DNA of 64,000 nt from Caldisericum exile AZM16c01 (GTDB taxonomy: Bacteria; Caldisericota; Caldisericia; Caldisericales; Caldisericaceae), in contig NC_017096.1 in assembly GCF_000284335.1 (NCBI RefSeq), positions 1,178,001-1,242,000 on the forward strand. Reading direction: 5' to 3'. Of the stretch, positions 25,989-30,886 are shown one piece after another. Under the pieces are notes generated by a model. It was not told the DNA's origin. It did not search any database and saw only the letters and a list, made by a program, of their open reading frames with translations. Each line of letters begins with the position of its first letter. Position 1 is the stretch's first letter. A program made the translations under genes and the position numbers.

Positions 25989-26742
25989 ATTCGTAAATGC
26001 TATAAAGCCCTTTTATTGTAAGAAGTTTGTCAAATATTTCTATTCTCTTTGAAACACCTTCCATAATATGGGATATACCACCAGTGCCAATGACACGTAC
26101 TTTTTCTCCAAGTTCTTCTTCAATGAGTTCTATAAGTCTATCAACAAGGCCACCAAAACCATTTATAACACCTGACTGCATTTCTTCAACGGTATTTCTT
26201 CCTATCGCACTTTTTGGTTTCACAAGTTCAATTCTTGGTAGTTGTGCAGTTTTTCTAAAAAGTTCTGTTGAAGCAGGAAGCACGCCAATTGTTATAGGAC
26301 CTCCAACGAATCTTCCATCTTTTGTAATTACAGAGAATGTTGTTGCCGTTCCGAAATCAACTGTTACGGCATTTTCATTCGGAAATAATTTATGTGCCTC
26401 AAAAATGTCGCAAATTCTATCTGCACCTACAAACCTTGGTTCGTCAACATCAAATTTTATTCCAATCGGTAACTCAGAGTTAATAAGAATTGCATCTCTC
26501 CCAGCCATTTTTCGTGCAACTGCTCTAAAGACAGGTGTAAGAGATGGGACAACAGAAGAGATTACAACATCCTCAACGTTTCCGTGAAGTTTCTCTTCTC
26601 TAATAAATTGCAGAAGTAACAACCTATATTCATCAGATGTCCTTCCGCTATCTGTTACAATTCTTAAAGTATTTAGAAGCATTCCCTTTTCAAAGAATCC
26701 AAACACAATATTTGTGTTTCCAATATCTACCGTTATAACCAT
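25972..26742 (-). CDS. coaX: Type III pantothenate kinase
   Basis: CoaX phosphorylates pantothenate, the first step of CoA synthesis. The 256-residue ASKHA-fold protein begins VITVDIGNTNIVFGFF (phosphate loop), and has FVGADRICDIFEAH, VDFGTATTFSVI and GGPITIGVLPASTEL as in the family. The Shine-Dalgarno taggagg precedes the ATG. It is the first gene of the seven-gene minus-strand operon and is divergent from the aldolase gene. Confidence 0.96.
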   Translation of the reverse strand: MVITVDIGNTNIVFGFFEKGMLLNTLRIVTDSGRTSDEYRLLLLQFIREEKLHGNVEDVVISSVVPSLTPVFRAVARKMAGRDAILINSELPIGIKFDVDEPRFVGADRICDIFEAHKLFPNENAVTVDFGTATTFSVITKDGRFVGGPITIGVLPASTELFRKTAQLPRIELVKPKSAIGRNTVEEMQSGVINGFGGLVDRLIELIEEELGEKVRVIGTGGISHIMEGVSKRIEIFDKLLTIKGLYSIYEYVKGK

Positions 26743-26816
26743 TTTTACCTCCTAACTTTCTATTTTACACAAAAAACAGGTATTTTGGTATAATAATTTG
26801 GCGAAAGGTGGTTAAA

Positions 26817-27449
26817 ATGAAGAGACAAATAAAAGAAGATATAGCAGCGATTGGAAGAAGACTGTATGAGCATCAACTTAACGGAAGTTACGGTGGAAAT
26901 TTTTCAGTAAGAGAAGAGGAATTTATATACATAACTCCTTCAGGTGTTCCCAAAGACGAATTAGACTACTCAGATATTCTTGTAATTGATTTCAGTGGAA
27001 ACGTCGTTGAAGGTGAAGGGAAACCTTCTTCGGAAATTCTTTTTCACATAAAAATTTATAAAGTTCGTCCTGACGTAAACGCAATAATACATGCCCACCC
27101 ACCATATGCAACAGGTTTTGCTATTGCAAACTCTTCAATTCCAAACAATGTCCACGAAGAATCTACTCTAATATTGGGAGATGTGCCTGTAATTCCTTAT
27201 GAGATAACTTCCTCAAAAGAACTTGCAGAAAATATTGGTAAGGCAATACAAGACCATAACGCTCTCCTTCTTGCAAACCACGGTGCACTTACCGTTGGGG
27301 ACACACTGGAAAGAGCATTTAGAAGAATGGAAGAACTCGAAAATCTGTGCAAGATGCTAACTGTTGCAAACCTTCTTGGTGGAGCAAAGCCAATTCCTCA
27401 AGATAAACTTGAAAATCTCCTGACTTTATCACTTACTCTTCATTTTTGA
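26817..27449 (+). CDS. Class II aldolase/adducin-family protein with IS-altered C-terminus
   Basis: A 210-residue zinc aldolase fold related to L-fuculose-phosphate aldolase. Substrate and metal motifs are SGVPKDELDYSDILVID, IIHAHPPYATGFAI (His-x-His) and LLANHGALTVG (His). I start it at ATG 26817, five bases after aaggtgg. The gene has been cut by the IS1634-type element: from about 27419 the frame runs into the IS end and finishes TLSLTLHF. The duplicated copy beyond the IS carries what was presumably the native end (ELKKKRGL, stop at 29482-29484). Because all catalytic motifs are upstream, the protein may still work. The sugar substrate is unknown. Confidence 0.88.
   Translation: MKRQIKEDIAAIGRRLYEHQLNGSYGGNFSVREEEFIYITPSGVPKDELDYSDILVIDFSGNVVEGEGKPSSEILFHIKIYKVRPDVNAIIHAHPPYATGFAIANSSIPNNVHEESTLILGDVPVIPYEITSSKELAENIGKAIQDHNALLLANHGALTVGDTLERAFRRMEELENLCKMLTVANLLGGAKPIPQDKLENLLTLSLTLHF
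27324..27418 (+). repeat. Left copy of the target duplication around the IS
   Basis: These 95 bases (96 if base 27419 is counted) within the aldolase 3' region are identical to 29359-29453, base for base. The two copies directly flank the inserted element. They begin agaatggaag and end gaaaatct. Confidence 0.93.
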
Positions 27450-29358
27450 GTATTTTTATCTAAAGAATGTAGTATTTATGTAGCTGTAATTTTTTGTTTT
27501 TTAAAATTGTAGTAGCAATATTTTATCATTTATTTCTTGTTTTTGCTTGCATTTTTTAATATTTATGATACAATAGGATATGTTTGTAAAAGTTACTAAG
27601 TCTGGAAAGCATAAGTATGTCTCCATAGTCTCGGCATACAGAGACAAAGAAAAAAGTATCATAAAGCACAAGGTGATCCTTAACCTTGGTAGATTAGATA
27701 TGATTGAGAACAACCCAATGTTTGGAAGATTAGGCCTTCGCCTTGCAGAACTATCAAAGTTTAAGGATATGATTGACCTGAATACGGTAAAAGGTGGAAA
27801 TGTCGTTAATACTGGCTATGCTGTCTACAAGAAACTCTGGGATAACTATGGATTAAATAAACTGCTTAATGATATGAGAGAGAAAACAAATATCCAGTTT
27901 GACTTAAACACTTCTATCTTCTTAATGGCAGCAGAACACCTTATGAATCCAAAGAGTAAGCTTGGAACATACAACAATCAACTGCACTATGCTAATCTTC
28001 CTTCTGTAGGATTAAACCACCTCTATCGTTCCCTTGACATACTATCAGAGCATAAAGAAACAATTGAAGATTACCTTTTTAACAAACAGAAGAGCCTATT
28101 CAATATGAATGTTGATGTTGTCTTCTATGATGCAACAACATTCAGGTTTGAAAGCGTAAAGAAGGATACATTAAGAGACTTTGGATTCAGCAAAGAAAAT
28201 AGGGTTAATGAAGTGCAGGTTGTCTTAGGACTGCTCATTGATATGGTTGGTCGGCCAATAGGATATGAACTCTTTCCTGGCAATACCTTTGAAGGTAAGA
28301 CACTTGAGTCGTCCCTTGATAAACTCAGTGGAAGGTTTGGCATACGCAGGGTAATCATCGTTGCAGACAGAGGGCTAAATTCAAAGCTCAACTTAAAGAA
28401 AATCAAAGATAAAGGGTATGATTACATTGTTTCATCACGCATAAAGAGCATGAAGAAGGATGTGCAGGAAAGTATCCTGAATGAAGAGGGGTACGTCACA
28501 ATAAAAGGGAAAGATACCCTTAACCTCAATTCAGCCGATTCAAGCCAAGATGAAGAAACCTTCAGATACAAGCTGCTTGATTATGTAAATACTGTAAGAG
28601 ATACAGATAACAAACTGTATGACCTCAAAGAGAAGCTCCTTGTAACTTATTCTCCCTTGAGAGCTCAAAAGGATAGAGAGGATAGGCAGAGGTTGATTGA
28701 TAAAGGAGTAAAATTTCTTGATAACCCTTCTGCTATCAGTGGAAGCTTGAAGCGTGGAGGAAGAAAATACCTCAAGGAGACAAACAAGCTGAACTGGGAA
28801 TTGGATAAAAATGCAATGTCAAGGGATGAGATGTTTGATGGATACTATGCAATAGAGGTAAGCAAGACTGATATGAATGTAAATGACATTCTTGATGCAC
28901 ACCATGCTCTATGGAAGATAGAAGAATCATTCAGGATAATGAAGAGTACGTTGGAGGTTAGGCCAATCTTCCACTGGACCGAAAAAAGAATCAAAGGCCA
29001 CTTTGTTGTTTGTTTCCTCTCTTTCCTTCTTGAAAGAACGCTTGAACTAACACTTAAAGAGAATAATATCAAAGCATCACCTGAAAGAATCAAAGAAGCA
29101 CTCAACTTAATGAATCTTACAGAATTTAGTGCAGAAGGACATTCATTCTATCTTAAAACAAAGTGGGATGAGCTTGGTAACAAGATTCTTAAAATACTTC
29201 ATATTAAACCTCCAAAAAACATTACTCCCTTTGAAGAGTTAAGAATCTAATCAGAACAAAAAGATCAAACAGAAGTTTGTAGTAGCAAAATGAAGGTTTT
29301 TAAAAATTAATTCTTAGGATTTATGCGGGTTGGTTCAAGGTCAACTGATAAAGTCGGG
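27419..29358 (+). mobile_element. IS1634-family insertion sequence, apparently intact
   Basis: A 1940-bp element bounded by 13-base terminal inverted repeats matching at 12 of 13 positions: CCTGACTTTATCA at the left (27419-27431) and, reading inward from the right end, CCCGACTTTATCA (29358-29346). It carries one full-length transposase gene and sits in the 3' end of the aldolase gene. It is flanked by a perfect 95-96 bp direct duplication. IS1634-type elements are known for unusually long, variable target duplications. The identity of the duplications and the intact gene suggest recent insertion. Confidence 0.92.
27580..29250 (+). CDS. IS1634-family DDE transposase
   Basis: A 556-residue transposase of the IS4 superfamily. 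The N-terminus MFVKVTKSGKHKYVSIVSAYRD is typical of IS1634-like proteins. Catalytic residues are visible: first Asp in FYDATTFRFES (about residue 184), second Asp in IIVADRGLNSK (about 263), and Glu in the YREK-like segment LWKIEESFRIMKSTLEVRP (about 450). No frameshift or internal stop is present, so it may be active. No strong Shine-Dalgarno precedes the ATG, in keeping with low transposase expression. Confidence 0.93.
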   Translation: MFVKVTKSGKHKYVSIVSAYRDKEKSIIKHKVILNLGRLDMIENNPMFGRLGLRLAELSKFKDMIDLNTVKGGNVVNTGYAVYKKLWDNYGLNKLLNDMREKTNIQFDLNTSIFLMAAEHLMNPKSKLGTYNNQLHYANLPSVGLNHLYRSLDILSEHKETIEDYLFNKQKSLFNMNVDVVFYDATTFRFESVKKDTLRDFGFSKENRVNEVQVVLGLLIDMVGRPIGYELFPGNTFEGKTLESSLDKLSGRFGIRRVIIVADRGLNSKLNLKKIKDKGYDYIVSSRIKSMKKDVQESILNEEGYVTIKGKDTLNLNSADSSQDEETFRYKLLDYVNTVRDTDNKLYDLKEKLLVTYSPLRAQKDREDRQRLIDKGVKFLDNPSAISGSLKRGGRKYLKETNKLNWELDKNAMSRDEMFDGYYAIEVSKTDMNVNDILDAHHALWKIEESFRIMKSTLEVRPIFHWTEKRIKGHFVVCFLSFLLERTLELTLKENNIKASPERIKEALNLMNLTEFSAEGHSFYLKTKWDELGNKILKILHIKPPKNITPFEELRI

Positions 29359-29484
29359 AGAATGGAAGAACTCGAAAATCTGTGCAAGATGCTAACTGTT
29401 GCAAACCTTCTTGGTGGAGCAAAGCCAATTCCTCAAGATAAACTTGAAAATCTCTTAGAATTAAAGAAAAAAAGAGGATTATAA
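29359..29484 (+). pseudogene. Displaced, duplicated 3' end of the class II aldolase gene
   Basis: The right copy of the duplication (29359-29453) plus 31 further bases that end the presumed original aldolase frame: ENLLELKKKRGL then TAA at 29482-29484. It has no start codon or upstream domain, so it is an orphan fragment. It preserves the pre-insertion C-terminus. Confidence 0.88.
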
Positions 29485-29489
29485 AAATA

Positions 29490-29509
29490 GAGGGAGCTTT
29501 TGCCCCCTC
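29490..29509 (-). terminator. Terminator after the M18 aminopeptidase gene
   Basis: GAGGGAGC (29490-29497), loop TTTT, GCCCCCTC (29502-29509), one mismatch in the stem. On the minus strand it is followed by TATTTTTAT. It probably also served the plus-strand aldolase before the IS insertion. Confidence 0.7.
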
Positions 29510-29521
29510 AAATTCAAAGTC

Positions 29522-30886
29522 TTATTCAAATTTCTCTAAAAATGCTTTATATCCAAGGTAGGAAGAATACAAATCTACTTTTGATGCAAGTTCAAATGGT
29601 GCATGCATCGAGAGAAGTGCAGGCCCAACATCAAGCACCTGAATGCCTCTATTTGCCATAAATTTAGCAACAGTTCCCCCACCACCTACATCCACTTTAC
29701 CAAGTTCGCCAATTTGCCAAGGTACCCCATTTTCATTAAAAAGTTTCCTTACCTTGAATACCAATTCAGCAGAAGCGTCAGATGCAGAATATTTTCCACC
29801 AGAACCTGTAAATTTGGTGACAACAACTCCATGTCCAAATATTGGAGAATTTTGATCATCAAAAACATCCCTATAAAGAGGATCAATCGCTGCATTTACA
29901 TCAGCAGATAGTCCGTATGATTTATGTAAAACTTCCCTTACAGAGACATTCTTTATACCTTTTAAGGCAAGATACTTTTCAATTGCATAGTCAAGAAAAT
30001 CTGATTGAGCACCAGTAATACCATCGCTTCCAATTTCTTCCTTATCAAATAGCATTACACCAATAGTTCTTTTTGGATTTGTTGCATCTATAAGCGCCAT
30101 TGCCCCTGTAAAGCCACAAATTCTATCATCATGCCCGTAAGATGCAATTGCACCTCTATCAAAACCCACATCACGGGCTTTACCTGCAGGCACAAGCGTT
30201 AATTCAGAACTTATAAAATCCTCTTCAACTATTCCATATTTTTCGTTCAAGAGTTTAAGTATTGCGGTCTTGAATTTCTCCTTGTCAGACTCTTTGTCAG
30301 GGATACTTCCTACAATTGGATCAAGTGCTTCTCCCTGAATAACTTCTCTTGCATTTTGTTCCATCTGCTTCTTTGCAAGATGTGGCAGTAAATCCGAAAT
30401 AACAAAAACTGGGTCAGTTTCGCTCTCTCCTATGCTAACTTCCAATTTGGTGCCATCTTTTAGTATTATAACGCCATGAAGTGCAAGAGGAATTGTCACC
30501 CACTGATACTTTTTAATACCACCATAGTAGTGTGTTTTAAACATTACAACATCCGCTCCCTCGTAAAGTGGGTTTTGTTTAATATCAATTCTTGGGGAAT
30601 CAATATGCGCAAATACAAAATTCAAACCATTTTCCACTCCGAGGATTCCGTCTTTCAATAGAAAAATGTTTTTGTTATCATTTATTGCATAATACTTTCC
30701 CGAGTGCGTATCTCCTTTAAACAGGTCAACAAAACCGTTTTGCTCTGCAACATTCTTCAAATACTTTACTGCTTCTCTTTCAGTTTTTGCGTTACTTATG
30801 AAGTCCTTGTAAGACTCAGAAAAATTAATTACCTCATCATGTTTTAATACTTCCCATGCATTTTTTGTTGAATACTTAAGTTCCAC
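29522..30886 (-). CDS. M18-family aminopeptidase
   Basis: A 454-residue cytosolic zinc aminopeptidase of family M18. Conserved pieces are FVFAHIDSPRIDIKQNPLYE (first metal His and Asp), DKEEIGSDGITG (catalytic Glu pair), GYDDRICG-like segment YGHDDRICGFTGAMAL, and the C-terminal LLSMHAPFELASKVDLY with the last metal His. These enzymes trim acidic or neutral N-terminal residues from peptides. It is a monocistronic minus-strand gene with a good Shine-Dalgarno (ggaggc). Confidence 0.95.
   Translation of the reverse strand: MELKYSTKNAWEVLKHDEVINFSESYKDFISNAKTEREAVKYLKNVAEQNGFVDLFKGDTHSGKYYAINDNKNIFLLKDGILGVENGLNFVFAHIDSPRIDIKQNPLYEGADVVMFKTHYYGGIKKYQWVTIPLALHGVIILKDGTKLEVSIGESETDPVFVISDLLPHLAKKQMEQNAREVIQGEALDPIVGSIPDKESDKEKFKTAILKLLNEKYGIVEEDFISSELTLVPAGKARDVGFDRGAIASYGHDDRICGFTGAMALIDATNPKRTIGVMLFDKEEIGSDGITGAQSDFLDYAIEKYLALKGIKNVSVREVLHKSYGLSADVNAAIDPLYRDVFDDQNSPIFGHGVVVTKFTGSGGKYSASDASAELVFKVRKLFNENGVPWQIGELGKVDVGGGGTVAKFMANRGIQVLDVGPALLSMHAPFELASKVDLYSSYLGYKAFLEKFE

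Follow-up and report, generated by a model that had tools for sequence, protein, structure and literature searches.

An insertion sequence (IS) of the IS1634 family has interrupted a class II aldolase gene of Caldisericum exile AZM16c01 and duplicated 95 bp of its target; we put at about 97% the probability that this insertion was recent and that long duplications of variable length are the normal product of the transposase clade to which the element belongs. When a transposase grips its target at a set stagger, the accepted signature is a short target duplication, a few bases in length and fixed. The window analysed here is a 64,000-nucleotide stretch (positions 1178001–1242000) from a genome that consists of one contig and measures 1,558,103 bp, and the element occupies 27419–29358 on its plus strand (1,940 bp), with the same limits in six identical genomic copies. 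Its 13-base terminal inverted repeats, CCTGACTTTATCA on the plus strand at 27419–27431 and CCCGACTTTATCA as read on the minus strand at 29346–29358, match at 12 of 13 positions, and between them lies a plus-strand gene (27580–29250) for a 556-aa transposase. The 95 bp to the left of the element (27324–27418, plus strand), which form the end of the aldolase coding region, recur to its right (29359–29453, plus strand) with identity at 95 of 95 bases, or 96 of 96 if the C shared by 27419 and 29454 is counted. A sequence-only reading of this DNA had claimed an IS with these limits, 12/13 inverted repeats, an intact DDE transposase and flanks identical at every base, and in each of these respects our analysis agrees with it.

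Several features place the element in the IS1634 family. The transposase scores 392 bits against the NCBIfam IS1634 model (NF033559; cut-off 100) and matches Pfam DDE_Tnp_1 (PF01609) with an E value of 5e-11. Its DDE residues, D184, D263 and E448, are invariant in the transposase alignments, with spacings of 79 and 185, the second spacer being long. Members of the IS1634 family are 1500–2000 bp long, with ends of the form C-----YT and a YREK motif that is not complete (PMC2266710); the size of this element and its ends, CCTGACTT and CCCGACTT, fit that description, and in the transposase H441 and L444 stand at the Y and R positions, with E448 and K455 present (positions read by eye). The IS4 family (Tn5/IS10/IS231), which has a complete YREK motif and duplications of 7–13 bp, was rejected on a score of only 26.7 bits against NF033592 (cut-off 115) and on duplications of 57–451 bp. 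The nearest named relative of the transposase comes from a Caldisericum MAG. The predicted fold of the window transposase is closest to that of the Tn5 transposase (E 2e-9, TM about 0.4), with sequence identity of only about 12%, and a sequence search of solved structures returned chance nucleoporin matches only. No Rfam family was found within 26300–30500.

The six genomic copies of the element show 100% identity across their full 1,940 bp. Each is bordered by a perfect duplication of its own length: 95 bp for the copy in the window, and 202, 104, 451, 57 and 181 bp for the others. In all six, the repeat begins with A and ends with T. The element is absent from four genomes of the same genus, two of them 98–99% complete, and this absence, together with the identity of the six copies, bears out the earlier suggestion of a recent event. 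For four of the six sites (those with 95-, 202-, 104- and 451-bp duplications), we joined the flanks and compared them with the four IS-free genomes of the genus and with other members of the family. At all four, the duplicated segment is single and uninterrupted in the IS-free same-genus genomes: the empty aldolase site was found in two genomes (82–83% identity over about 700 bp), the empty 451-bp site in four, and the empty 202- and 104-bp sites in two each. Because IS-free genomes hold the segment once, the repeat must have arisen with the insertion; the duplication arises together with insertion, and its length varies. The sequence-only reading had named two observations that would count against it. 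Empty sites already carrying two copies of the segment were not found, nor were short, uniform duplications at the other copies, all five of which differ in length (57–451 bp).

These data also bear on two readings in which the transposase has no part in the repeat. Repeats of this size can form without transposons, and the duplication might be older than the IS or a product of homologous recombination, with the IS at the junction by coincidence; yet the repeat lies exactly at both IS limits in six of six copies, and the single segment in IS-free relatives at all four sites tested refutes this account, which we regard as scarcely credible. We give equally negligible weight to an assembly artefact. 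Repeats that border repeats are prone to misassembly, but in this single-contig genome the six flanks are all different and so are their lengths, and the pattern recurs in many unrelated assemblies, several of which are also one-contig.

Transposase relatives were gathered from genome contigs, whole genomes and plasmids and scanned for inverted repeats with an adjacent direct repeat, exact duplications of at least 14 bp being counted; a scan of viral_contigs yielded one partial match, which was left out. The related elements provided 78 independent exact duplications of 14–470 bp (median about 137), whose lengths fit a gamma distribution with a shape of about 1.8; the survey trims the window copy to 91 bp owing to an ambiguous end, and the value is 95 bp with consistent IS ends. 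In control chimeras, made by joining the left part of one element to the right part of another, none of 151 had a flanking repeat of at least 14 bp beside the inverted repeats, which excludes a chance origin of the flanking repeats. In most of the remaining full-length copies the repeats are long but show slight divergence or an interruption. Copies of one element within a single genome, that of Syntrophomonas sp. DTU019, have duplications from 21 to 284 bp. The longest repeats are a 1,362-bp repeat in G823 (L263), 100% identical between about 4.6–5.9 kb and 7.8–9.2 kb, and a 1,253-bp direct repeat in G567 (L262), 99.7% identical; each lies at both limits of a related IS, and both exceed the published range of 8–514 bp cited in PMC2266710. 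As a side observation, the short duplication in Syntrophomonas sp. DTU019 (L086/L143) coincides almost exactly with a hairpin that resembles a terminator and has a T run, and T runs occur at the left IS end in several copies.

Other relatives make short duplications. Duplications of 5–7 bp are found in Geobacillus, two Alicyclobacillus elements, ISAzo6, Acidiphilium and several Mesorhizobium copies, and the terminal repeats are alike across the two modes (for example, CCCGAGTTCGACAGT with 5 bp and CCCGAGTTTGACACTT with 85 bp). On a 60-row transposase tree, a quick tree that includes only seven short-mode elements, the long mode (44 elements, a set found partly by sequence patterns of the long clade itself) and the short mode are separated by a single change (SH-aLRT 98), and none of 500 shuffles needed as few. 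The sole distant element with a long duplication, from Persicobacter (406 bp), joins the tree on a long branch, so its placement is unsure, and two Mycoplasmopsis gallopavonis relatives group within the long clade. These results show that duplication mode follows the transposase clade. The earlier assignment of a long, variable, IS1634-type duplication therefore holds for the window IS but not as a trait of the whole family, since it marks one transposase clade only. Residues that separate long from short transposases include N77, S358, W445, E449 and F475; because just seven short sequences enter this comparison, these candidates are a lead and not a result.

The distribution of the two modes also speaks to the idea that a property of the host, such as unusual gap repair in Caldisericum, and not the transposase sets the long duplication. 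Long duplications occur in Enterococcus, Syntrophomonas, Thermoanaerobacter, a Bacteroidia bacterium and Mycoplasmopsis, and 5 bp is the duplication length of L019, which is related to the short clade and comes from the class to which Caldisericum belongs. Nothing was found in favour of a host property, which we consider very improbable.

The norm for the IS1634 family is a duplication of 5–6 bp, with IS1634 and IS1549 as exceptions at 8–514 bp, and as of 2008 the long duplications of these two elements were without a mechanistic model (PMC2266710). The window IS falls in this exceptional long class and not in the typical one. Like it, IS1634 of Mycoplasma mycoides subsp. mycoides SC belongs to NF033559 and has long direct repeats of variable length (Vilei 1999, as cited in PMC2266710 and PMC1798306); its host is of a different phylum, and the two are likened by description, not by sequence. 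IS1549 of Mycobacterium smegmatis is a member of the same family that makes long direct repeats on insertion (Plikaytis 1998, as cited in PMC2266710), but it is actinobacterial, unlike the window IS, and is likened to it by description. ISGka5, with a duplication of 6 bp (PMC8024623), and the other 5–6 bp members (PMC2266710) share the family and have similar terminal repeats, but their duplications are short. Tn5 (IS50, IS4 family), whose transposase is the best fold match, belongs to a group with duplications of 8–9 bp (PMC2266710), against 57–451 bp here. Insertion flanked by a long copied target, of variable length, has also been described for restriction-modification systems (Nobusato 2000, as cited in PMC3031569), which, unlike the window IS, imply no IS1634-family transposase.

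Long variable duplication is thus already known from IS1634 and IS1549, and the window element adds another case. What is added here is the set of 78 exact duplications, the 1,253- and 1,362-bp cases, and a transposase tree that parts the long mode from the short by one change. In the open-access literature searched, we found no later survey of long duplications, a scope that leaves the priority of the clade result unestablished. Because the long mode lies on one side of a single branch and short-mode relatives with similar ends lie on the other, the question can be approached directly through domain swaps and in vitro assays.

We examined base composition at the ends of the duplications. Of 75 insertions, 60 have A as the first duplicated base, compared with 32% inside duplications (p 1e-17), and in 53 the duplication ends in T, equivalent to A on the opposite strand, compared with 31% inside (p 3e-12); with one insertion per element, the counts are 31/43 and 29/43. 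The first six bases at the two duplication ends are 83% and 72% A+T, against 63% inside. Both joins therefore share a first-base preference, A on either strand, and that each join has its own local preference is as expected if the two IS ends choose their sites separately. A 10–11 bp periodicity of the duplication lengths was tested for and is absent, giving no sign of a fixed helical face.

We propose that the DDE transposase would bring the two IS ends together, and that each IS 3′ end would attack its own A/T-rich site, A first, on opposite target strands and with the usual 5′ polarity, the attack sites being separated by tens to hundreds of bases and not by 5–6. Host synthesis would then copy the stretch between the attack sites, leaving one copy on each side of the IS. 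Duplication of the segment in nearly every case, and the local preference common to both ends, lead us to favour two transfers of normal polarity at separate sites of one target. As the predicted fold resembles that of the Tn5 transposase, the chemistry is probably ordinary, with only the spacing unusual. We infer that both sites are attacked from a single synaptic complex and that the host copies the duplex between them, and a contribution of the replication clamp would be a further such step; two-site attack, deduced from end products, stands as an overall mechanism at roughly even odds. The best explanation taken whole, IS identity together with the two-site mechanism, we consider quite likely. 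More broadly, we see the chances as evenly balanced that a clade of DDE transposases has lost its fixed strand-transfer spacing, with each IS end joining independently at an A-first, A/T-rich site, on opposite strands and 14 to 1,362 bp apart, and with a single switch between this mode and 5–7 bp on the sampled tree.

The main rival to two-site attack is that the IS ends join two sister chromosomes behind a replication fork at non-matching positions, yielding a duplication or a deletion of what lies between. Sister joining would account for the variable length and for the independent choice of target by each end, and it gains some appeal from a report of binding between an IS1634-family transposase and the replication sliding clamp, with stronger binding raising transposition (PMC4549789). 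That family member, from Acidiphilium, is distant from the window transposase, in which no clear clamp motif was seen by eye; clamp binding makes a link to replication no more than plausible here, by analogy. The two proposals also differ over six full-length copies in the long clade that have no repeat (L265, L269 in G642, L267 in G759, L268 in G539, L048 and L118). Flanks of up to 8 kb around the repeat-less copies still held no repeat, and an exchange of flanks between copies was sought as their cause and not found in three genomes. These copies possibly reflect later rearrangement or deletion at insertion; if they are deletion products, they are not predicted by the fixed-polarity model and could be the deletion class of sister joining. 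However, sister joining predicts similar rates of duplication and deletion before selection, whereas there are about 95 long duplications and 6 copies without one. Taking the origin to be at dnaA, position 1, the orientation of the six genomic copies relative to fork direction is 3:3, so no fork polarity is seen and the bias that would point to the fork is missing. Attack on sister chromosomes thus appears doubtful, and we retain two-site attack as the preferred mechanism.

If the fixed spacing has indeed been lost, a single insertion could copy whole genes or spare both neighbours, and examples of each outcome are at hand. The 1,362-bp duplication in G823 doubled two whole genes in one step, one of the YbjQ family and the other with a Met_synt_B12 domain. 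The 451-bp copy (genome 870076–872019) sits between rubredoxin and ferritin-like genes, named by eye from translations; each survives complete in one copy of the repeat, so both neighbours remain intact. Long flanking repeats should also permit precise loss of the IS through homologous recombination, and programs for finding IS elements will misjudge the long clade if they expect short duplications.

The aldolase gene itself (26808–27449, plus strand; assigned by Pfam, Aldolase_II E 3e-56) still encodes 213 aa after interruption. Its last 8 residues now come from the left end of the IS, TLSLTLHF replacing ELKKKRGL; the sequence-only reading was right that an IS-encoded tail had been swapped in and overestimated its extent at ten or so codons. 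As it also proposed, the native end is orphaned beyond the IS, where 29454–29484 (plus strand) encodes ELKKKRGL and a stop codon, and IS-free relatives read through to it. The same IS-encoded tail, LSLTLHF, ends the upstream reading frame at a related element in another genus. Among the remaining genomic copies, two interrupt genes (those with 202- and 104-bp duplications), and the one with 57 bp lies between genes. The 181-bp copy (genome 106879–108821) lies inside the transposase gene of another IS, and IS elements are thus nested in the Caldisericum exile genome.
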